This document shows, piece after piece, positions 39,353 to 49,926 of a DNA stretch of 64,000 nt (the stretch's first letter is position 1; the number at the start of each line of letters is the position of its first letter). The stretch is from an uncultured Cohaesibacter sp. (GTDB lineage Bacteria > Pseudomonadota > Alphaproteobacteria > Rhizobiales > Cohaesibacteraceae), in assembly GCF_963677725.1 (NCBI RefSeq), contig NZ_OY782507.1:3966501-4030500 (forward strand). The letters are read 5' to 3'. The notes beneath the pieces are model-generated. The model was not told the origin of the DNA, did not search any database, and was given only the letters and a program-made list of their open reading frames with translations. Position numbers and translations under genes: made by a program.

Positions 39353-40522
39353 TCAGACTGTCCCCAAACGATCCCTGACAAGTTGCACCCAAAAGGAACA
39401 ACCCCAACCGATCGCTTCATCATTGAATTCATATTCTGGGTGATGAAGATTTGCAGACGGGCCATTGCCGATATTGATCATCATGCCCGGAACCTTGTTC
39501 AGCATGAAGGCGAAGTCTTCGCCACCCAGAGTGGGCACCATATCGGTTATCACATTGTCTTCGCCTGCGATGCTGCGTGCCGCTTTGGCAGCAAACTCTG
39601 TGTGGTCTTCGTGATTGATCAGGACAGGGTAACTGCGCACATACTCAACCTCGCCGACGCAGCCATTGCCTGCAGCGATCTGAGTGATAATCTGCTTCAC
39701 ACGCTCTTCCACATGGTCCTGAACGTCCTTGTTGAGGGTGCGGACCGTGCCTTTGAGCTTGAGTTGCTGTGGAATGACATTGTGTGCATTGCCCCCTTCA
39801 ATCGCGCATAACGACACCACGTGAGATTCAAACGGATCGACGCTTCGCGCGCTCATGCTTTGAAGGGCTTGAATGATGCCTGCCAGCGCGGGGAAAGGGT
39901 CAATCGAATTGTGAGGTTCTGCTGCATGCCCGCCTTTGCCAGTGATGGTGATGTCGAGCATGTCGACGGCCCCCATATTCGGGCCAGGCGCTGTCGCGAA
40001 TTTGCCAATATCAAGCCCGGGCATGTTGTGCATGCCATAGACTTCATTGCAGGGCCAGCGATCGAATAACCCGTCTTCGATCATGGCTTGTGCCCCTGCG
40101 CCCCCTTCTTCTGCGGGCTGGAAGATCACGATCACTGTTCCATCAAATGCTCTGGACGCGGCCAGATGACGTGCGGCCCCCAGCAACATGGTGGAGTGGC
40201 CATCATGACCGCATGCATGCATTTTGCCCGGCACTTTGGAGGCATGAGGCAGGCCGGTGGCCTCTTCGATTGGCAAGGCATCCATGTCGGCGCGCAAACC
40301 AATGATTTTGCCAGAGTTGTTGCTTTGGCCCCGAATAACCCCGACAACACCGGTTTGCCCCAACCCTTCCACGACTTCATCGACACCGGCATCGCGCAAT
40401 GCGTCGGCAACCTTTTTGGCTGTGCGATGAACCTCATAGAGCAATTCGGGATTTTCATGCAAATCGTGTCGAAATGCCATTAGATAGTCAAGATCACGAG
40501 AAACCCAGTTTTCGACAGCCAT
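39353..40522 (-). CDS. M20-family amidohydrolase, candidate N-carbamoyl-cysteine hydrolase
   Basis: 389 residues. Zinc-site motifs of M20D/hippurate hydrolase-type enzymes: GLRADMDALPI, HACGHDGHSTMLLGAA, QPAEEGGAGA, and the dimerisation-domain GGHAAEPHNSIDP. The C-terminal metal His is in SANLHHPEYEFND. Such enzymes cleave N-acyl or N-carbamoyl amino acids. In Pseudomonas, an M20-like amidohydrolase converts N-carbamoyl-L-cysteine to L-cysteine after ATC hydrolase; this gene lies three bases after an ATC-hydrolase-family gene, so the same step is inferred here. Last gene of the cluster. Confidence 0.85.
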   Translation of the reverse strand: MAVENWVSRDLDYLMAFRHDLHENPELLYEVHRTAKKVADALRDAGVDEVVEGLGQTGVVGVIRGQSNNSGKIIGLRADMDALPIEEATGLPHASKVPGKMHACGHDGHSTMLLGAARHLAASRAFDGTVIVIFQPAEEGGAGAQAMIEDGLFDRWPCNEVYGMHNMPGLDIGKFATAPGPNMGAVDMLDITITGKGGHAAEPHNSIDPFPALAGIIQALQSMSARSVDPFESHVVSLCAIEGGNAHNVIPQQLKLKGTVRTLNKDVQDHVEERVKQIITQIAAGNGCVGEVEYVRSYPVLINHEDHTEFAAKAARSIAGEDNVITDMVPTLGGEDFAFMLNKVPGMMINIGNGPSANLHHPEYEFNDEAIGWGCSFWVQLVRDRLGTV

Positions 40523-40525
40523 GAT

Positions 40526-40993
40526 CTACCCTTTCTTCATCTTGTATCGGAAATCGCAGTGGGACGCGCCTTGCATGATGGTTTGCGTGCGCGTCAGTTC
40601 GATATCTTCGTTATAGCCGATACAGAAATCACCGTCCCGATTGCAGGATAATAAGTGTCCGATGTCACCCAAACCCATTTCGCGATACATTTCTGAATAG
40701 CGGCACCGGGTGACGTTGAACTCCATTTTCTCTTTTTCGGCGACCAGAACATCCATTTGCAGGGCGTCTTCCTTGGTCCAATTGGGCAAAATGGCTGCAA
40801 AATCAGCCAGATCGGGGGCGTGGCCCAGATCTTCGGCAAGGCTTTTTCCCTGTTCAATCGCAGAGCGAGAACAGGTTTCTCCAATCACGGCCTCGGCTTC
40901 TTCTCTACCGGATCGCTCGGTGATGACATCAAGTACATGTTTGAGGATCATCGCTTCAATGCGGCGACGCTCCAGAATGGGAATGTCTTTCAT
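40526..40993 (-). CDS. L-2-amino-thiazoline-4-carboxylate (ATC) hydrolase family protein 1
   Basis: 155 residues, starting MKDIPILERRRIEAMILKHV. The region FNVTRCRYSEMYREMGLGDI then GHLLSCNRDGDFCIGYN and ELTRTQTIMQGASHCDFRY is the recognised core of the family, with conserved cysteines. Family members open the thiazoline ring of L-ATC to N-carbamoyl-L-cysteine. It sits between the FAD oxidoreductase (11-base gap) and the M20 amidohydrolase (3-base gap), clearly one operon. No signal peptide. Confidence 0.85.
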   Translation of the reverse strand: MKDIPILERRRIEAMILKHVLDVITERSGREEAEAVIGETCSRSAIEQGKSLAEDLGHAPDLADFAAILPNWTKEDALQMDVLVAEKEKMEFNVTRCRYSEMYREMGLGDIGHLLSCNRDGDFCIGYNEDIELTRTQTIMQGASHCDFRYKMKKG

Positions 40994-41004
40994 GGCGGCT
41001 TTCT

Positions 41005-42315
41005 CTAGAGTTTGGGTTCGCGTTTGTCCTTGAACTGGTACCAGGCGAGATAGAAGGGGGCGATCTTTCTGCCGATCGCATGGAATGGCAAAGCCTTTGG
41101 CGTTGTGGTGGGAAGGGCAAGACCTGCCACGTCCTCACCTGCGATTGCCCGGGCCATCTCGCGTCCGAGCGCGTAGCCCAGCGCGACACCGCGACCGTTG
41201 CAGCCAATCCACGTCCAGCCATTTGGCCCCAGATTGTGGACGCGCGGGAAACGATCCCAGTTCATGGAAAGATAGCCATTCCAGACATGGGTCATTTTGG
41301 GGGGAGACAATTGAGGGAAGCTATCGGCAAGATTGTGCGCGGCCTTATGGGCAATTCGTGCAGTCAGATCACCAAAGCCCATGATCGCGCCCCCTGTGAT
41401 CAGGCGATTGTCCCTGTCATAATGGAAGAAACGCAAGTCTCCGCGCGTGTCGGACACGGCCTGCCTGCCGGGCAGAATCGTTGCCTGCAAGTCGCTCGAC
41501 AAGGGCTCGGTCGACATCTGCCAGGAATTGACCGGCACTATCGAGCGGGCCAACCTGCTGCTCAGGTTCGGGACGATTTCGCCGGTATAGGCATTGGTCG
41601 CCAAAATCAGCGCGCGAGCCGTGACCTCGCCCTTTGCGGTCTTGACGATCCATTTCGCACCGTCATGGGCGTAGCTCAGCACCGGGCTTTGTTCGAAGAT
41701 TTGTACGCCAAGGGCTTCAACGGATCCCGCCAGACCGCGAGCCAGCCCCAACGGGTTGATGTGGCCGCCGCTGGGGGCCAGCATGCCGCCATACCAACGG
41801 TCTGTGCCAAGCAGCTCGGTGGTTGCAGCACGATCAAGATAGTGTGTTTCCAGTCCAAAACGGCGCCAGGTTTCCACGCGCTTCTGGCTCAGTTTGGTGC
41901 GGCCGGGGGAATGGGCTGGCTGGAACCAGCCGGTTTGCTCTGCATCTGCAGCCTTGACGATATCGTCCTCTCGGATGGCGGAAAACAGCATATCGGCAGA
42001 CGCTCCGATCAATTCTGAAAAGCGTCTGCCGGTCTCTCCAAATCGGGCGACCCATGCGTCGGGTTCCGCTGCGGTGAGCGTGGGGATGACCTGCCCATTG
42101 TTGCGGCCAGATGCGCCCCAGCCAATGGCCATGCCTTCGAGCAGAATGACATTATGTCCGGACTTGGCAAGATGCCGTGCCGCCCCAAGACCGGTGAAGC
42201 CTCCGCCGATGATGACGGTATCGGTCTCTTTTTTGCCCTCAAGTGCGGTGGTTGGTTCGCGTGGAGGGGCTGTTTGTGCCCATATGGTGGGGGGGAAGGC
42301 TACCGTGTTTGCCAT
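41005..42315 (-). CDS. FAD-dependent amine/amino-acid oxidoreductase (DAO type)
   Basis: 436 residues with the ATG at 42315, which has GGAG at eight bases; longer frames to 42597 run into the upstream ABC gene. Rossmann motif TVIIGGGFTGLGAARHLAKS and GWGASGRNNGQVIP mark the DadA/glycine-oxidase-like (DAO) group; NGWTWIGCNGRGVALGYALG near the end is the second FAD-binding segment. Predicted to oxidise an amino-acid-like compound with oxygen or an electron carrier. In this cluster it may act on the imported thiazoline or thiazolidine, by inference. Confidence 0.85.
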   Translation of the reverse strand: MANTVAFPPTIWAQTAPPREPTTALEGKKETDTVIIGGGFTGLGAARHLAKSGHNVILLEGMAIGWGASGRNNGQVIPTLTAAEPDAWVARFGETGRRFSELIGASADMLFSAIREDDIVKAADAEQTGWFQPAHSPGRTKLSQKRVETWRRFGLETHYLDRAATTELLGTDRWYGGMLAPSGGHINPLGLARGLAGSVEALGVQIFEQSPVLSYAHDGAKWIVKTAKGEVTARALILATNAYTGEIVPNLSSRLARSIVPVNSWQMSTEPLSSDLQATILPGRQAVSDTRGDLRFFHYDRDNRLITGGAIMGFGDLTARIAHKAAHNLADSFPQLSPPKMTHVWNGYLSMNWDRFPRVHNLGPNGWTWIGCNGRGVALGYALGREMARAIAGEDVAGLALPTTTPKALPFHAIGRKIAPFYLAWYQFKDKREPKL

Positions 42316-42370
42316 TGAGACACTCCGATGCTCAGTATTTGACATGGTGTTGATGGGGGAGAAGAACGGC

Positions 42371-43078
42371 TCAATGGACATGGCCTCCCAGATAGGCCTC
42401 TGCAATGCGGGGGTCGTTTGCCAAGTCCTGCGACTTGCCGTCCACCACGATCTTGCCATGTTCAATGACGTAGGCGTGATCTGAGACGCGAAGGGCTGCT
42501 TTGACATTCTGCTCAACGAGCAGAACCGCGTAGCCTTCTTGCCGAATTTTTGACACAAGATCGCAGATGAATCCGACCAGTCGCGGTGCAAGGCCAAGAG
42601 ATGGCTCGTCCAGAAGCAGGACTTTGGGCTTGCGCATCAAGGCCCTGCCGATGCACAGCATCTGTTGCTCGCCACCGGACATGGAGCCTGCTTGTTGTTT
42701 GAGCCTTTCCCTGAGAACCGGGAACAAGGACAAGACACTGTCTAGTTCTTGCCGGCCCAGCGGACCACCGCCGACAATAAGGTTTTCAAGCACTGTCATG
42801 TTGGAGAAAATCTGTCGACCTTCGGGGGCTTGCATGACTCCACGATCAACGATCTCGTTGCTTTTGAGGCCTGAAATGTCTTGGCCATCGAGCAAGATTT
42901 CGCCCCCGGTGGCCGAATAGATGCCCGAGATGCACCGCATGAGCGATGTTTTGCCGACACCATTGGCTCCAAGCACGGACACGATCCCCTTTTCCGGCAG
43001 GGATACGCTGACATCGTGAAGAATCTCCTGAACCCCGATTTTGAGTGAGAGATTCTTTATCTCGAGAAGATTGCTCAT
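42371..43078 (-). CDS. livF: Branched-chain-type ABC transporter ATP-binding protein (LivF-like)
   Basis: 235 residues. Walker A GANGVGKTS, signature MSGGEQQMLCIGRAL and Walker B LLLDEPSLGLAP match LivF. Its start overlaps the stop of the upstream LivG gene by four bases (ATGA). Together with LivG, LivH, LivM and the binding protein it forms a complete HAAT-type importer. Substrate of this copy is probably not a branched-chain amino acid, judging by the enzymes around it. Confidence 0.93.
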   Translation of the reverse strand: MSNLLEIKNLSLKIGVQEILHDVSVSLPEKGIVSVLGANGVGKTSLMRCISGIYSATGGEILLDGQDISGLKSNEIVDRGVMQAPEGRQIFSNMTVLENLIVGGGPLGRQELDSVLSLFPVLRERLKQQAGSMSGGEQQMLCIGRALMRKPKVLLLDEPSLGLAPRLVGFICDLVSKIRQEGYAVLLVEQNVKAALRVSDHAYVIEHGKIVVDGKSQDLANDPRIAEAYLGGHVH

Positions 43079-43830
43079 TGCTCATCGCTCCCCAAATAGG
43101 CTTCCAGAACAGCGGGATCCTTGCGGACATTGGCAGGCACATCATCGGCAATCTTGCTGCCGGATGCGAGCACGACAATGCGATCGCATATGCCCATCAC
43201 GAGGCCCATGTCATGCTCAACGAGCATGATGGTCAAACCTTCTTGTTTGAGGCTTTTGATGAATTGGGCAAGTTCGGCGGTTTCCGTGTCATTCATGCCT
43301 GCTGCTGGTTCATCGAGAATGAGCAGTTCTGGCTTCATGGCCAGAGCGCGGGCGATTTCAAGATATTTCCGCTTGCCGTAGGAGAGGTTTGCGGCGAGAT
43401 CATCGGCATGCTCGGCAAGTCCGACTTTCTCAAGCATTTCCCAGCTTCTTTGAGAAATCTGATTGGCTTTCGCTTTCCCGCCGATGAGTGAGGAAAGCGG
43501 GGTGACACCAGCAATGCCCAGAGCACCGACGGTGATGTTGTCAAACACCGTCATATTGGGAAAGACGCGCAAATTCTGGAAGGTGCGCGACATGCCCTTG
43601 TGCGCAATCTTGTTGGCAGCCAATCCTGTAATCTTCTCACCTTTGAACAAGACGTCCCCTGAGGTGGGCGGCGTGAAGCCGGAAATCAGGTTAAAGAGAG
43701 TGGTTTTGCCTGCGCCATTCGGTCCGATCAGCCCCATCAATTCGCCTTCAGCAAGTTCGATGGAAACATTGTCGACGGCTTTCAGACCGCCAAAGGTGCG
43801 GGTCAGTGCATCCAGTTCGAGTATCGTCAT
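43075..43830 (-). CDS. livG: Branched-chain-type ABC transporter ATP-binding protein (LivG-like)
   Basis: 251 residues from the ATG at 43830, which overlaps the LivM stop (ATGA). Walker A GPNGAGKTTLFNLISGF, signature LSYGKRKYLEIARAL and Walker B LLILDEPAAGMND, plus the LivG-typical extended C-terminus. A GTG start at 43839 would add three residues. Second ATPase of the importer. Confidence 0.93.
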   Translation of the reverse strand: MTILELDALTRTFGGLKAVDNVSIELAEGELMGLIGPNGAGKTTLFNLISGFTPPTSGDVLFKGEKITGLAANKIAHKGMSRTFQNLRVFPNMTVFDNITVGALGIAGVTPLSSLIGGKAKANQISQRSWEMLEKVGLAEHADDLAANLSYGKRKYLEIARALAMKPELLILDEPAAGMNDTETAELAQFIKSLKQEGLTIMLVEHDMGLVMGICDRIVVLASGSKIADDVPANVRKDPAVLEAYLGSDEQ

Positions 43831-44828
43831 GACTTCCACCCGATCCCTTCCTGTCCCTTGGACCCTGTCCAGTGCGCTCCAAGGAAACGTCGGGCCAGAT
43901 TGAGGGCGGAGACCTCACCGAACAAGCCTTTGGGCAGAAACAGGATTGCTCCGAACATCACAAGGCCGACGATAATATTTCGGATGTCGCCGACGCCTCG
44001 GAGCACTTCGGGCAACAGGATCAGCAGAAGGGCGCCGATGAGTGCCCCCGGAAGCGAACCCAGACCTCCGACAACCACCATTGCAAGCACAAGGATGGAC
44101 TGGGAGAAATTGAAGTCATTGGGAGAAATGTAGCCGGTGGTATAGGCCCAAAGGGCACCAGCGATGCCCGCAAAGAAAGCGGATATCACAAAGGCCTGTA
44201 TTTTCAGGATCGTGACATTGATCCCCATTGCCGAGGCACATTGGTCATCCTCGCGCAGAGACCGCAAGGCATTGCCATAATAGGAGTGGCTGAGGCGATC
44301 GATGATCCAGATGGAGACGAGCACGATGATTGCCACGACATAATAGATGCCAAGGTCGCTGCTGACTTCAAAGCCAAACAGATTGATGCCTGAGAAGAGC
44401 AGAACGCCATTGGGGCCGTTCGTGACATCGATCCAGTTCTGAAAGATCAGAAACAGCATTTGGCCGATGCCCAGCGTTGCCACTGCAAAATAAATGAAGA
44501 CAAGTCGCATGGTGGGCAGGGCGACCAGAAAGGCGATGAAGGCGGATGCCAGACCCGCCAGCGGCAGACCAATTGTAAAGCCGATATCAAGCTTTGATCC
44601 CAGAAGGGCGGCGACATAAGACCCCACCCCATAAAGCGAAGCGTGGCCAAGATGGAGCAGACCCGCGACCCCTGTGACCAAATGCAGGGACGCTGCCAGA
44701 AGCATGAAGACGAATGCGATCATGGCAACCTGATAATAGTAGCCCTGATCAAAGGCTGCCAGCAGGGCGGGGATCGCCCCCAGAGCGAGGATCAGCAACA
44801 GGCTTTTGATGAGCAGAGGTTTATACAC
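43827..44828 (-). CDS. livM: Branched-chain-type ABC transporter permease (LivM-like)
   Basis: 333 residues from a GTG at 44828, with AGGAGG just before it; this start overlaps the LivH stop. Multiple membrane helices with GVAGLLHLGHASLYGVGSYV and the ALRSLREDDQCASAMGINVT loop that contacts the ATPase, both LivM features. The frame opens to 44846 through a TTG, less likely. Confidence 0.92.
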   Translation of the reverse strand: MYKPLLIKSLLLILALGAIPALLAAFDQGYYYQVAMIAFVFMLLAASLHLVTGVAGLLHLGHASLYGVGSYVAALLGSKLDIGFTIGLPLAGLASAFIAFLVALPTMRLVFIYFAVATLGIGQMLFLIFQNWIDVTNGPNGVLLFSGINLFGFEVSSDLGIYYVVAIIVLVSIWIIDRLSHSYYGNALRSLREDDQCASAMGINVTILKIQAFVISAFFAGIAGALWAYTTGYISPNDFNFSQSILVLAMVVVGGLGSLPGALIGALLLILLPEVLRGVGDIRNIIVGLVMFGAILFLPKGLFGEVSALNLARRFLGAHWTGSKGQEGIGWKS

Positions 44829-45732
44829 GTTCCCTCCTTGCCCCAAAGAGGCCCTGTGGGAAGAAGATCAACGTTACCAGAAGGAATGTGTAGGCAACCA
44901 TGTCAGACCACACGGACGACATGAAGCTGGTGGCCAGACTCTCTGAAAGGCCCAAAATGATTGCGCAGATGACCGCGCCGGGGATGGAGGACAGGCCGCC
45001 CATAACCATCGCCACAAAGGCTTTGATGCCCGGAAGAAAACCCATGGCAGGGAAGATTGCACCATAATAGAGCCCCACCAGCATGCCCGCCAAGGCACCC
45101 ATGGATGAGCCGATGATGAAGGTGAAAATAATGGTGCGGTCGGTATCGATGCCGCAATATTTTGCTCCCAGAGCATTGTTGGATACGGCGCGAATCGACA
45201 GGCCGATCGAGGTGTATTTGAGGATCCATTGCAGGCCGATCAGCATGATCAGTGTGACAGCGAAAATGATCAGGTCACCATTGACGATGGTCACAGGCCC
45301 AAGGCTGATATGGGTGTTGATGAGATAATCCAGATTGATGGTTTGGAATTCGGACCCGAACAGATGCTCCATGCCTTCGCGGGCGATGATCGACACTGCC
45401 AGAGAAGACATCAATGTGGCTTCCCGCATGGCTTTGGATTTGAGAGATGCTTCATCCGAAAAGCGACGAAACGGCTTGAAGGCCAGTCTTTCAAGGCTGA
45501 TGCCTGCCAGTGCTCCGGCGGCAACCGCCACGAGCAGGACGACAAATAACGGCGGAGCGAGCGCCGTGATCGCGAACAAACCGGCATATGCACCGATGGT
45601 ATAAACCTCGCCATGGGCAAAGTTCACGACATTTAACACACCGAAGATCAGGGTGAAACCAATGGCTATCAGGGCGTAGATCATGCCCAGTGACAGACCG
45701 ATGGCCAGCTGCTGTAAGATATACGGATCCAC
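44821..45732 (-). CDS. livH: Branched-chain-type ABC transporter permease (LivH-like)
   Basis: 303 residues, eight or so hydrophobic segments. The N-terminal IYALIAIGFTLIFGVLNVVN and FAHGEVYTIGAYAG are the LivH hallmark. GLSIRAVSNNALGAKYCGID is the cytoplasmic coupling loop. The gene follows livK after a hairpin-containing 87-base gap and overlaps livM. Confidence 0.93.
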   Translation of the reverse strand: MDPYILQQLAIGLSLGMIYALIAIGFTLIFGVLNVVNFAHGEVYTIGAYAGLFAITALAPPLFVVLLVAVAAGALAGISLERLAFKPFRRFSDEASLKSKAMREATLMSSLAVSIIAREGMEHLFGSEFQTINLDYLINTHISLGPVTIVNGDLIIFAVTLIMLIGLQWILKYTSIGLSIRAVSNNALGAKYCGIDTDRTIIFTFIIGSSMGALAGMLVGLYYGAIFPAMGFLPGIKAFVAMVMGGLSSIPGAVICAIILGLSESLATSFMSSVWSDMVAYTFLLVTLIFFPQGLFGARRERV

Positions 45733-45763
45733 AATGATATTCCCGTTTTACTGATTTCTGATG

Positions 45764-45788
45764 TCAGCCCGGCAAAGGGCCGGGCTGA
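45764..45788 (-). other. Hairpin between livK and livH
   Basis: TCAGCCCGG (45764-45772) pairs with CCGGGCTGA (45780-45788), loop seven bases, no T-run. It lies right behind the binding-protein gene, the same place as stems after the two other binding-protein genes in this window. Confidence 0.65.
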
Positions 45789-45819
45789 TGTCGAGGAGGA
45801 AGGGAACAGGGTCCACTCG

Positions 45820-46932
45820 TTACTTCATTTCTTTGAAGGCACCTGATTCGACCGTGGCTTTGGCCAGCTGTTTTTCCGGTTCGCCATTCTCGTCAAAGGA
45901 CGTGTCGCCAGTAACGCCGGGGAAGTTCTTGGTTTGAGCAACAGCTTCGCGCAGGCTCTCACGGGTGATATCGGGATAGGCTTTCACGACCGCGTCGAGC
46001 ATGATGTTGACCGCATCATAGGCCTGTGCAGGGAACTGACCCGGTGCGAGATCGTGGGTCTTTTTCCATTCCGAGACAAATTCCTGAACATGAGGTTCTG
46101 CACGGTTGGGCAGGAAGGTGACCGTCAGGAACAGACCATCAGCGGCATCCCCTGCCAGTTCGATCAGTTTGTCGTTATAGGCAGCAGAGGTGGAATAGAT
46201 GGGGATTGAAACATCGAGCTGTTTCATCTGTTTGAGGAACTGGGCTCCATCTTCATAGAAGAAACCTGTATAGACTGCATCGGGCTTCTGATCGGCAATC
46301 TTGGTGATGATGGAGCGGAAATCGGCAAGGCCTCGGTTGAAGAATTCCGTATAGACGACCTCTCCGCCGGCTGCTGTGAATGGCTTTTCAAACCCTTTGA
46401 CGACCGACTGGCCCCAATCGCTTTGCTCTGCAATGACCGCAACCTTTTTGATCCCCTTGCTCATCAACCATTCGGCGTTGACTGCGCCTTCCTGATTTTG
46501 CGTGGTGATGTTACGGAACTGCCACTTGGAGATTTTGGCAAAATCCGGATGCGAAGCGGTTTGCGAAAGCTGAACCATGCCTGATTTGCGATAGACCTGT
46601 GCGGCGGCCATGGAAACAGTGGACGTAAAATCACCTAAAACGCCAACAATTTCATCATCGTCGACGAATTTTCGGGCAATCGTGATGCCTTCTTTTGCAT
46701 CAGAGCGGGAGTCTTCAAAAATAATTTCAACGGGAACGGGCAGCTTGCCTGAGGCGTTAAACTTGGACAGGGCAATCTCAGCTGCGTCCTTGAAGCCTTG
46801 ACCATATTGGGAATGACTGCCTGTCAGGGGCAATTGGTAGCCGATTTTTACGCTGTCTGCAGCAAATGCCGCGATGGGCGCACTCACGAAGAGCGCAGTC
46901 AGAGACAATAGCGTCTTTCTAGATACAATCAT
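45820..46932 (-). CDS. livK: Branched-chain-type ABC transporter substrate-binding protein (LivK-like)
   Basis: 370 residues with a signal peptide (MIVSRKTLLSLTALFVSAPI, cleavage near AFA-ADS). Mature part starts VKIGYQLPLTGSHSQYGQGF, the Peripla_BP_6 opening, followed by VGVLGDFTSTVSMAAAQVYR and KVAVIAEQSDWGQSVVKGFE. Ligand class: amino-acid-like; the surrounding ATC hydrolases make a cysteine-derived heterocycle plausible. Confidence 0.92.
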   Translation of the reverse strand: MIVSRKTLLSLTALFVSAPIAAFAADSVKIGYQLPLTGSHSQYGQGFKDAAEIALSKFNASGKLPVPVEIIFEDSRSDAKEGITIARKFVDDDEIVGVLGDFTSTVSMAAAQVYRKSGMVQLSQTASHPDFAKISKWQFRNITTQNQEGAVNAEWLMSKGIKKVAVIAEQSDWGQSVVKGFEKPFTAAGGEVVYTEFFNRGLADFRSIITKIADQKPDAVYTGFFYEDGAQFLKQMKQLDVSIPIYSTSAAYNDKLIELAGDAADGLFLTVTFLPNRAEPHVQEFVSEWKKTHDLAPGQFPAQAYDAVNIMLDAVVKAYPDITRESLREAVAQTKNFPGVTGDTSFDENGEPEKQLAKATVESGAFKEMK

Positions 46933-47061
46933 TGAAATGTTCCTTGCCTGTTGGTGATTGCTACGTGCCCGTGTTTGTCTCGGGCTTATTGGATTTTTGA
47001 GTTTTATTGGATATTCAGTCTGTGCATTTTCTGTGCCGTTTTGAAGGATGTCGGCAACAAA

Positions 47062-47571
47062 TCAAGCGTCCGCTGTTGGGCCGGGTTTGACAATGAGACG
47101 GCAGCATCCGGTTTTTCCCGGCTTCCATGTTTCGCCCTCGAAGGTAAAGCCTGCGGTGGTGAACATGCCTGCGTCAATGGCACCCGCAGACCGACACAGC
47201 ATTTCAAGCTCGTCCCCTTCACGGCCGTCGGCTTCCCAGGAGGTTTTGAGCGGACAGGTGTGGAACTGGATTTCCATGCCGTCCTCATCGCATTTGCGCA
47301 GTTCTGGTGCGAAGAGGTGGTCCTTGCAGGGGATGCCCTGAAGAAACTGCTCGGTCAGCGCTTCGATGTTTGTCGGGCCGTGGGGTTTGAGTTTTTCACC
47401 CATTTCCGAGCCCAGACGATAGGTTGCTTGGCTCATCAGCTTTACGGCCGTATCGTCGTCATATGTCTCTCGCAAGATATCGAACATATGCTTGTAGAAT
47501 TTGGCGCGCATGGTGTAGGCGCCAGATAGCTGCTCAAGCGTAATAGTGGGGGAGGTTTCTTCGTTTGCCAT
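47062..47571 (-). CDS. ATC hydrolase family protein 2
   Basis: 169 residues. The middle MEIQFHTCPLKTSWEADGRE and LCRSAGAIDAGMFTTAGFTF then WKPGKTGCCRLIVKPGP show the cysteine pattern of the L-2-amino-thiazoline-4-carboxylate hydrolase family, but it is clearly diverged from the copy at 40526. Family assignment is from motif memory; function may differ, for example a second subunit or a different heterocycle. It lies between the class V PLP enzyme and the transporter on the same strand. Confidence 0.72.
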   Translation of the reverse strand: MANEETSPTITLEQLSGAYTMRAKFYKHMFDILRETYDDDTAVKLMSQATYRLGSEMGEKLKPHGPTNIEALTEQFLQGIPCKDHLFAPELRKCDEDGMEIQFHTCPLKTSWEADGREGDELEMLCRSAGAIDAGMFTTAGFTFEGETWKPGKTGCCRLIVKPGPTADA

Positions 47572-47630
47572 TGTTGGTCCAATCGTTGATCAATCTATGG
47601 AAAGTGTGAAGGCGCGGGATAAACCGGTCG

Positions 47631-49328
47631 CTATCCCAATTCTAGCGCTGTTTGCTCCTGTTTCGAAGCCTCGATGTCCTGTGGCATCCAGAAGTCTCTT
47701 AGGCTTTCAAGGTCAGAGCGAAAAACAGGATTGTGGTGCAAGGTTGGGGCAGGGCGTTGCAACGCCAATGCCCTTGCCTCTTTGAGAAAGCCTGAAATGT
47801 CCCCGCAAGGCGTGGTCTTGGGTGGGCATGACTGGTCCCAGAAATTGCCAAGACTTGCCAGTGCGCTGCTTTCGATATGTTTGTTCTTCCAGACAGCCTT
47901 GCTGCTGTCGACTTCGTAATCCTGCAGAAAATGCAGTCCGTAGCGTGCAACGAACAAAATCGCTTCGGTTATGTAGTCGACGGTCTGATTATCAAAGAAA
48001 TAGTTGAAGCCCAATCGCACCCAGCCGGGGCGCAAGAGGCTGTATCCGTCCTCAATTGCGGTGACATAACATTTGGATTTGTCGGTTGAAATGTCGAGAA
48101 GATCATGCGCGTAAGGACCGGCGCAAGAGCAGCCACCACGGGCCTGAATGCCAAACAGGTCATTGAGCAGCGCAACAACGTATCCATAATGTAGCAATTG
48201 TCCCTGTTGTTCGATGGTGAAGGACAAGACACCAATCCGCGGCTGATCGACGGGCCCCAGAATATGGATGTTCGGGTCTTGGGCAAGGCGCGCCATCACC
48301 GATTGAATGATCGCTTCTTCTCTGGCTTCAATTTCCTGACTGCCAACGGCTTCCTTGAGGGCCATGACAGCTCCGGCCCGAATGTCTGCAACAATGTTGG
48401 GCGTTCCCGCCTCTTCGCGACGTTCAAGATGGGAGACATAGATCTGGTCTTGTGCTGTTACGTAACTGACTGTTCCTCCCCCGGTCACGCCGGGCTTGGT
48501 GGATTTGAACAGGGATTTGTCAGCCACCAGAATGCCAGACGCGCCCGGTCCTCCGATGAATTTGTGACCAGAGAAGAAGAGCGCATCAATCCGGGCCTGC
48601 GGATCGTTGTCCTCTAGCGCCAGTGTCATTTCGACATAAGGGGCTGCTGCGGCAAAGTCACAGACGAAACAGGCTCCGTGCCCGTGCAGTATCTTGGCAA
48701 GAGAGGCCAGATCGCTGCGCACACCGGTTACATTGGAGGCCGCTGAAAAGGCGCCAATTTTGGTATATTTATCGTCATAGGCGGCTAAGCGGGACTGGAG
48801 ATGGTCCAGATCGAGCCGACCATCGGCAGCCAGGCCGATCCGTTCAATGGTCGCGCCGGTTTCTCGCCATGGCAAATCATTGGAATGGTGTTCATAAGGA
48901 CCGACGAACACGACGGCTTGATGGCCGTCTTTTACCTGTTCTTCAACCATCATGCCACGCACCAGTCGATCGACTGCACTGGTGGCACCCTGACCGCAAA
49001 ACAGAACGCAATGCTCATCCGTAGCACCCACGGCCTTTGCAATTGTGGCGCGCGCTTCTTCTCTGAGCGCCGTGATTTCTCTGCCCGTGTATGATGTTTC
49101 GGTGTGGGTGTTGCCATAGATCGGCAGCACGGTGTCCCAGATCCTGCTTTCAAGAAAAGTCAGAGAGCGGCCTGATGCGATGTAATCTGCATAGATGAGC
49201 GGGCGAGGTCCAAACGCAGAAGATATCCAATCACGTTCGCCAATGACGCTGTCTCTTATTCTGGCAACAAGTGCTGCTTTATCCTGCGCGGTGGTTGGGG
49301 CCTGTTGGGGTGTGGATGAGTTTGGCAT
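47631..49328 (-). CDS. Class V aminotransferase-fold PLP enzyme (cysteine desulfurase-like), with C-terminal extension
   Basis: 565 residues from ATG 49328 (GGGA upstream). The SufS/NifS-like core has LFCGQGATSAVDRLVRGMMV, YEHHSNDLPWRETGATIERI, FVCDFAAAAPYV and the PLP Lys in FFSGHKFIGGPGASGILV. RGGCSCAGPYAHDLL is at the place of the cysteine-desulfurase active-site Cys loop. Usual family length is near 400; about 130 extra C-terminal residues (from QDYEVDSSKAVW) are unassigned. Likely breaks C-S bonds of cysteine or a related product. First gene of the minus-strand cluster. Confidence 0.85.
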   Translation of the reverse strand: MPNSSTPQQAPTTAQDKAALVARIRDSVIGERDWISSAFGPRPLIYADYIASGRSLTFLESRIWDTVLPIYGNTHTETSYTGREITALREEARATIAKAVGATDEHCVLFCGQGATSAVDRLVRGMMVEEQVKDGHQAVVFVGPYEHHSNDLPWRETGATIERIGLAADGRLDLDHLQSRLAAYDDKYTKIGAFSAASNVTGVRSDLASLAKILHGHGACFVCDFAAAAPYVEMTLALEDNDPQARIDALFFSGHKFIGGPGASGILVADKSLFKSTKPGVTGGGTVSYVTAQDQIYVSHLERREEAGTPNIVADIRAGAVMALKEAVGSQEIEAREEAIIQSVMARLAQDPNIHILGPVDQPRIGVLSFTIEQQGQLLHYGYVVALLNDLFGIQARGGCSCAGPYAHDLLDISTDKSKCYVTAIEDGYSLLRPGWVRLGFNYFFDNQTVDYITEAILFVARYGLHFLQDYEVDSSKAVWKNKHIESSALASLGNFWDQSCPPKTTPCGDISGFLKEARALALQRPAPTLHHNPVFRSDLESLRDFWMPQDIEASKQEQTALELG

Positions 49329-49926
49329 AATGTTCCCAAGAAATCTGACTGGTGGAACGAAAATCTGTAAATTCAAGATTGATGAAATAATGTTTTGATA
49401 TAGAAAATTATTGTTCACTTACAGATAAATGCGCAACAAAAAACTAAATTATTCATCAAGAAAGCAAAATTGAACTACCTTAATGGACTAAGGTAGAATT
49501 TGTTTTTTCGTCAGTTGGTATTTCGTGGGGTGTCAGAAATTATTTTTTATCCCTCGTTTATTGTCAGGCTGCCGTTTGTCGGCTGACCAAAGCGCCTTCA
49601 GTGCTTTGGTCGGACGGGATCAGGACGCAACGGGAATCGCTTTTTGCAACAATAGATTTTGTTGAATTTTCCGTACATTCAGAATTTCATCTTGTATTTG
49701 AGGCGTCGCACCCAGTGGACCTGTGAGCGGTGAAGCCGAATTGATCCGGATGAAATGTCTTATGATTTTGATTGAGGCGATTCAATTGGGCTCGCAGCTG
49801 TGCCATGAATGGTTTACGGGCGATTCAGGTCGCCTTGATCTGGTTTGATTGTTTGAACCGGACTTTGCAGCGGCCAAACAGGCCGTCTGCCTGAAATGAC
49901 AAGGTAAGGATAGATCGGGGACTGGA
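49329..49926. other. AT-rich divergent intergenic region, promoter of the ATC cluster
   Basis: About 600 bases between the divergent PLP-enzyme and LysR genes. AT-rich in 49380-49560 with no gene recognised. It must contain the cluster promoter on the minus strand and the LysR promoter on the plus strand, but I cannot place boxes. Confidence 0.5.

Follow-up and report, generated by a model that had tools for sequence, protein, structure and literature searches.

The window considered here is a stretch of 64,000 nucleotides from an uncultured Cohaesibacter sp. (contig NZ_OY782507.1, positions 3,966,501 to 4,030,500), and it holds a cluster of ten genes that is proposed from sequence comparison, at roughly even chances, to be a catabolic operon for thiazolidine carboxylates. 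All ten reading frames are open, run on the minus strand and together span positions 49328 to 39353. The first (47631..49328) encodes a class-V pyridoxal phosphate (PLP) enzyme of 565 aa, which is cysteine desulfurase-like with a C-terminal extension and a GGCSCAGPYAH loop, and is followed by ATC2 (47062..47571), a diverged PF14196 protein of 169 aa. Five genes of a Liv-type importer come next: a LivK-type substrate-binding protein (45820..46932) whose start resembles a signal peptide by eye, a LivH-type permease (44821..45732), a LivM-type permease (43827..44846, with the true start probably slightly downstream of 44846), a LivG-type ATPase (43075..43839) and a LivF-type ATPase (42371..43078). 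The cluster closes with a 436-aa amine oxidase of the DAO family (41005..42315), dependent on flavin adenine dinucleotide (FAD), then ATC1 (40526..40993), a PF14196 putative ring-opening hydrolase of 155 aa, and finally an M20 N-acyl amidohydrolase of 389 aa (39353..40522) which is proposed to deacylate N-acyl-cysteine. In this order the intergenic gaps are 59, 129, 87, -26, -13, -4, 55, 11 and 3 bp, tight gaps which, judged from the spacing, would fit an operon as expected.

The sequence-only reading of this DNA had named a one-strand cluster of ten genes, and the families found by Pfam are those it gave. PF14196, the family of the hydrolase for 2-aminothiazoline-4-carboxylate (ATC), is matched twice, by ATC1 at 130.1 bits and by ATC2 at 38.9 bits against a cut-off of 28.1; these are the only matches in the window's genome, and the two proteins are about 20% identical. 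A binding protein (PF13458, Peripla_BP_6, 220 bits; closest solved chain 3hut, 319 bits), two permeases (PF02653, BPD_transp_2, 143.9 bits for LivH and 139.3 for LivM) and two ATPases (PF00005, ABC_tran, in both, with PF12399 in LivG) make up a complete Liv-type importer, the type being read from Pfam and the substrate only by inference. The FAD enzyme scores 209.6 bits with PF01266 (DAO; scanned from 42303), and the M20 enzyme 163.9 bits with Peptidase_M20, plus M20_dimer. The placement of the PLP enzyme among the cysteine desulfurases stood in part: it is a class-V relative that falls within the wider SufS/CsdA-type group (PF00266, Aminotran_5, 175.8 bits, with the loop GGCSCAGPYAHD), yet it is not SufS, as its best NCBIfam model, TIGR01979, gives 163 bits against a cut-off of 475. 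The GGxxCAGP motif of this loop, probably the active site, was found by motif scan in 53 of 55 PLP homologues (at least two loci being counted twice), and the enzyme is proposed on its family to be an L-cysteine desulfurase or desulfhydrase.

The same gene set is found again in other genomes, including one of the same genus and Celeribacter. An ATC1 alignment scanned against 84,980 species genomes yielded 297 relatives, and the 80 top-scoring ones make up the named loci (identified here by L numbers); these were selected for likeness to ATC1, come from related lineages, mostly Rhodobacterales or Rhizobiales by title, and were scored for gene presence by tblastn with identity and coverage thresholds. 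All ten genes occur in four of the 80, and Celeribacter carries the full set in the window's order. The FAD oxidase accompanies ATC1 in 78 loci and the M20 enzyme in 72, while the FAD-ATC1-M20 triad is present in 71 and stands in order, on one strand and with less than 900 bp from FAD to M20 in 69. The importer is more variable: 12 loci have the Liv type, 66 an oligopeptide (Opp) type, none both and two neither (L060, a 5-kb contig, and L083), and ATC2 was found in 12 loci, every one of which has a Liv importer. An even class sample of 385 genomes gave a PF14196 match at E <= 1e-15 in 37, own included, and, in the flanks taken, the triad in the window's own genome only.

Recurrence was also followed from the PLP gene. 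An order-level sample of 297 genomes has a PLP homologue at E <= 1e-80 in 40 (own included), and 20 of these 40 loci, mostly the best-scoring, were taken at up to 20 kb each. The same-genus genome has ten of ten genes in identical order and 66-91% identical; in two loci only M20 is missing from the ten, and the FAD gene is relocated beside PLP; and one has PLP-FAD-ATC1-M20 with a different importer. The remaining 16 have the PLP gene without ATC1, two of them with a Liv-type importer (L041, L043). A gene of the Lrp family (at least 32% identical) lies near PLP in 11 of these 16 loci (L036, L040, L042, L044-L048, L050-L052), and PLP plus Lrp may be a separate unit for cysteine breakdown.

The removal of a carbamoyl group is the part of the sequence-only reading that is not supported. 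The M20 enzyme matches TIGR01891 at 345 bits (cut-off 153.75), and its counterparts from L064, L094 and L183 do so at 330, 353 and 362 bits, whereas the hydantoinase/carbamoylase model TIGR01879 gives 29.3 bits (cut-off 204) and the ErtE carbamylase model 28.5 (cut-off 520). By sequence family the enzyme is an N-acyl amidohydrolase and not a carbamoylase. The stretch MHACGHDGH and the residues C104, H106, E138, E139, H165 and H360, which we take to be active-site and metal residues, are invariant in 15 aligned sequences. A further 21 loci were compared, 13 around PF14196 matches of a phylum-wide sample and 8 from annotated plasmid records. In seven (L162, L165, L167, L171, L179, L180, L181) an ATC hydrolase stands beside a carbamoylase-type M20, six of which score 389-463 bits with TIGR01879, that of L167 being outside the scan; no FAD-enzyme match was seen in these seven loci, the contig of L165 being only 5.4 kb. 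Four others (L177, L182, L183, L184) have FAD, ATC1 and a TIGR01891-like M20 with no carbamoylase match, and the other ten have neither M20 arrangement. Across loci L033 to L132 the sole carbamoylase match is in L073, about 8 kb from ATC1. Each kind of M20 thus has its own arrangement, and this speaks against carbamoyl removal in the window; the carbamoyl route was rejected as the principal interpretation because the M20 family does not fit.

These results also bear on the possibility of ATC or a close relative as the substrate, with opening to N-carbamoyl-cysteine and loss of the carbamoyl group through M20. The Pseudomonas DL-ATC pathway is alike in pairing the hydrolase that names PF14196, for opening a thiazoline-4-carboxylate, with an N-carbamoyl-L-cysteine amidohydrolase that sets cysteine free, and ATC1 is both a clear PF14196 member and 45-50% identical to the hydrolases adjoining carbamoylase-type M20. 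The excerpted text of PMC10821248 gives routes from ATC to cysteine via N-carbamoyl- and S-carbamoyl-cysteine. However, the cluster differs from the Pseudomonas pathway in its TIGR01891 M20, its linked FAD oxidase, its second PF14196 protein, its importer and its cysteine-degrading PLP enzyme. With M20 far outside the carbamoylase family, and with an oxidase that ATC does not need in 78 of 80 ATC1 loci and no match to it seen in the seven loci that pair the ATC hydrolase with a carbamoylase, ATC as substrate is quite improbable.

The closest NCBIfam model to the FAD oxidase is the L-pipecolate oxidase AmaA, yet the score of 231.4 bits against a cut-off of 600 places it in a different subfamily. 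The predicted model (pLDDT, predicted local distance difference test, 86.5) has sarcosine oxidase beta (1vrq, E 1.7e-26) as its top Foldseek match and also resembles glycine oxidase and dimethylglycine dehydrogenase, with L-proline dehydrogenase (1y56) at rank 12; 35 of the 50 fold neighbours listed are named for secondary or tertiary amines. The enzyme is proposed to oxidise a thiazolidine to a thiazoline. Such an oxidase would have no job on a thiazoline like ATC but would fit a thiazolidine, since only the latter should need oxidation before opening.

The same fold is open to another use. A preformed thiazoline or N-alkylated thiazolidine, as in a siderophore or peptide fragment, would then be the substrate; the FAD enzyme would remove an alkyl group from the nitrogen or act on a second ring, and each PF14196 enzyme would open a different ring. 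The fold is shared with N-methyl amine oxidases (sarcosine oxidase, dimethylglycine dehydrogenase) and the commoner importer is of the oligopeptide type (66 of 80), suggesting larger molecules; among the eight annotated plasmid records, a Martelella ATC1-Liv locus lies beside a nonribosomal peptide synthetase (NRPS) gene and an Agrobacterium locus beside siderophore-uptake genes. These neighbours, however, occur in one record each, and most loci have a single PF14196 protein (ATC2 in 12 of 80), so that a substrate of this kind appears unlikely.

The fate of the product is indicated by the last-step gene, which in the 80 named loci is the class-V PLP gene in 35, a Cds1-like gene in 12, both in none and neither in 33. 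Cds1 is a PLP enzyme of another family (PALP in the case of L183), whereas the window's cluster has the class-V enzyme. Five of the 12 Cds1-like proteins plus two plasmid proteins were scanned and reach 376-562 bits with NF052478, the model of the L-cysteine desulfhydrase Cds1, below its cut-off of 600, the 376-bit protein (L098) matching over part of its length only; the other seven were assigned by tblastn, being 74-95% identical to the protein of L091. RidA, which clears the cysteine desulfhydrase intermediate 2-aminoacrylate, also has a homologue in five of the 12 Cds1-like loci. Plasmid AbAZ39_p4 of Azospirillum argentinense (L183) has Lrp, RidA, Cds1-like, ATC2-like, Liv KHMGF, ATC1-like, M20 and FAD genes, by content a rearranged form of the window's set in which a Cds1-like enzyme stands in for the PLP enzyme; Azospirillum sp. 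TSH58 (L182) has M20, FAD, ATC2, Liv KHMGF and ATC1, and no PLP or Cds1 gene is seen in the stretch viewed. As the PLP and Cds1-like enzymes exchange in the locus, cysteine is supported as the product.

It is this exchange that meets the suggestion of a ring without sulfur, in which the same three enzyme types would act on another cyclic imino acid or an amidine, and the products met by the PLP enzyme would resemble serine or diaminopropionate. Many PF14196 members stand without the triad and have no assigned substrate, and the best match of the FAD enzyme is an L-pipecolate oxidase model, both of which would suit such a ring. Yet the replacement enzyme of L091 fits the cysteine desulfhydrase model at 562 bits, far above cysteine synthase A (154) and SbnA (140), and the PLP enzyme groups with cysteine desulfurases; a substrate free of sulfur is therefore rather improbable.

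In analyzing the two PF14196 proteins, a shared set of cysteines is seen. C97, C117, C124 and C146 of ATC1 do not vary in 81 of 81 sequences, and C97, C117 and C146 are invariant over 37 aligned ATC1 and ATC2 sequences; ATC2 has G at the position of ATC1 H145 and a gap at D147, and H145 lies outside ATC1's own 98%-conserved positions. No PDB chain matching ATC1 by sequence was found at E <= 1. Its predicted model (pLDDT 93.3) has a V4R-like fold, matching the sensor domains of PoxR/MopR (E 4e-5 to 4e-4, probability 1.00, TM-score 0.52-0.59) and TRAPP Bet3 chains equally well, with H-NOX chains next, in keeping with the excerpted text of PMC5847659, which relates PF14196 to V4R. In a tree thinned to 67 rows, ATC2 and its relatives lie on one side of a branch with support 100/100, while the ATC1 rows need three changes and the carbamoylase-linked rows two; a split of ATC1 from the carbamoylase-linked hydrolases was rejected, as support for the deep branching is weak and the members of neither group form one clade.

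Other arrangements of PF14196 genes were noted. L220 and L225 each have a pair of oppositely oriented ones, with 46% and 55-56% identity to ATC1 and a distance of about 5.3 kb between them, and no FAD or M20 match nearby. In L251, from the class sample, a Cds1-like gene (56%) lies about 1 kb from the PF14196 gene. At L173 (8057-13887, minus) an ATC2-like PF14196 gene, 30% identical, closes an operon for an Opp-type importer, the OppA of which shares 44% identity with the OppA of the triad loci, with no FAD or M20 match in the 15.7 kb covered.

Several observations weigh against the thiazolidine interpretation. The 80 loci were chosen by ATC1 similarity and come from related lineages, and for the latter reason the mutual exclusion of PLP and Cds1 is not a count of independent events. 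Nine of the 80 are without FAD, M20 or both (L055, L083, L087, L088, L112, L124, L126, L127, L129); an unlinked M20, 52-60% identical, is present in five genomes searched, three of the Stappia type plus those of L055 and L087. At 45 other PF14196 places in the class-wide sample (two of them those in L163 and L166) there is no homologue of FAD, M20 or carbamoylase in the flanks taken, some of which end at contig ends. PF14196 was rejected as a sure marker of the pathway on these counts (37 of 385 genomes match, 45 other places without the triad); because of those 45 places, the family alone tells little and the triad is one specific arrangement. Of the 50 fold neighbours listed for the FAD enzyme, 15 take their names from primary amines (glycine oxidases, amino acid deaminases and D-arginine dehydrogenase among them), and since the neighbours split 35 to 15 the fold does not prove the substrate class. 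The 33 loci with neither PLP nor Cds1-like gene mean that some versions do without the last step; in 11 searched genomes of such loci a Cds1 homologue at E <= 1e-40 was found in none and a PLP homologue, 43-44% identical, in two. Lastly, the window's own genome has a second candidate for cysteine breakdown, an unlinked Cds1-like gene (G000:C1:1423159-1424220, 54% to L091), so that the exclusion holds per locus and not per genome.

With regard to regulation, a 22-base inverted repeat with arms of 8-9 bp lies at 49475-49496, about 150 bp upstream of the PLP gene; it was rejected as a conserved operator, as its exact core is found in one of 184 loci, the window's own copy. Lrp was likewise rejected as the window's regulator, there being none in the cluster, and the closest homologue in the genome, 47% identical, is unlinked. 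Elsewhere, the Martelella plasmid locus L178 (3782-18058) has Lrp, an Asp/Glu racemase-family gene, a Liv importer, an ATC1-like gene and another FAD oxidoreductase, adjoining an NRPS gene. A VOC gene beside an Lrp gene is seen upstream of the Opp importer in L184 (2392-3279, minus; a Glyoxalase_3 match) and L177 (615-1478, minus), and VOC homologues are present in 65 of the 100 loci L033 to L132, at least two of these being the same locus twice; the VOC protein could act on an aldehyde-derived part.

Thiazolidines arise wherever cysteine meets formaldehyde or other aldehydes, and a route through such a ring may be laid out for the cluster, in which we infer all substrates, the order of steps and the product from the gene families. 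The Liv-type importer would bring in a thiazolidine-4-carboxylate, the condensation ring of cysteine and an aldehyde, with thioproline from formaldehyde and 2-substituted rings from other aldehydes as candidates. The FAD oxidase would oxidise the bond between the ring nitrogen and C2 to give a thiazoline-4-carboxylate, and ATC1 would hydrolyse the C2-S bond, opening the ring to an N-acyl-L-cysteine (N-formylcysteine from thioproline). M20 would then take off the acyl group to leave L-cysteine and a carboxylate, and the class-V PLP enzyme would break the cysteine down with release of sulfur, a role taken elsewhere by Cds1 with RidA. ATC2 may act on a different stereoisomer or a different ring, or may function in binding.

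A precedent for this chemistry exists in mammals. The excerpted text of PMC2645137 describes, in rat liver and kidney, the conversion of thioproline to thiazoline-4-carboxylic acid, N-formyl-cysteine and then cysteine plus formic acid, and the breakdown of thioproline (timonacic) is alike in the proposed ring oxidation, hydrolysis to N-formylcysteine and deformylation (PMC2645137, PMC9814826, in the parts available). Thioproline is also called a formaldehyde reservoir in mammals in an excerpt of PMC9814826. The mammalian oxidation is carried out by mitochondrial proline oxidase, whereas the cluster would be a dedicated bacterial gene set. Mitochondrial proline oxidase has a flavoenzyme fold unrelated to that of the DAO-type FAD enzyme. 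In bacteria, thioproline oxidation is not new, because E. coli ProC oxidises it (PMC12899673, in excerpt), and defB of B. subtilis is called an N-formylcysteine deformylase in the available part of a sporulation paper (PMC4703394). A further likeness is to YxeP of Bacillus subtilis, the closest solved chain to M20 by sequence (1ysj, 270 bits). YxeP is presumably the deacylase of S-(2-succino)cysteine salvage, a route that needs no ring opening; unlike that system, the cluster has no acetyltransferase or YxeK-type monooxygenase among its ten genes by Pfam.

The thiazolidine interpretation is drawn from the triad linkage, the PLP/Cds1 exchange, the TIGR01891 M20, the amine-oxidase fold of the FAD enzyme and the rat thioproline precedent. 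The uptake and breakdown of a cysteine-derived ring, claimed by the sequence-only reading, is supported without its carbamoyl step, as the recurring cluster fits it and a cysteine-degrading enzyme is present in many versions. That the cluster is catabolic and yields cysteine is fairly well supported and likely, while the case for a thiazolidine as the substrate is evenly balanced. More tentatively, and with somewhat less than even weight, the three-enzyme core may be a dedicated bacterial route from spontaneously arising aldehyde-cysteine adducts to cysteine and a carboxylic acid, chromosomal or plasmid-borne by strain. The parts are ordinary, and their combination seems undescribed in the openly licensed literature: among the matches listed, no openly licensed paper describes such a gene cluster by title or abstract start, which, subscription papers being outside the scope, is weak evidence of novelty. 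If true, no route of this kind would have been defined genetically before, as far as that literature shows, and PF14196 would gain an enzyme with a new role that goes beyond ATC. A recurring three-gene unit, with a hydrolase that takes its name from the industrial substrate ATC, would then have a function that can be tested, and the route would explain how bacteria recover sulfur and nitrogen from these adducts and dispose of the aldehyde carbon.

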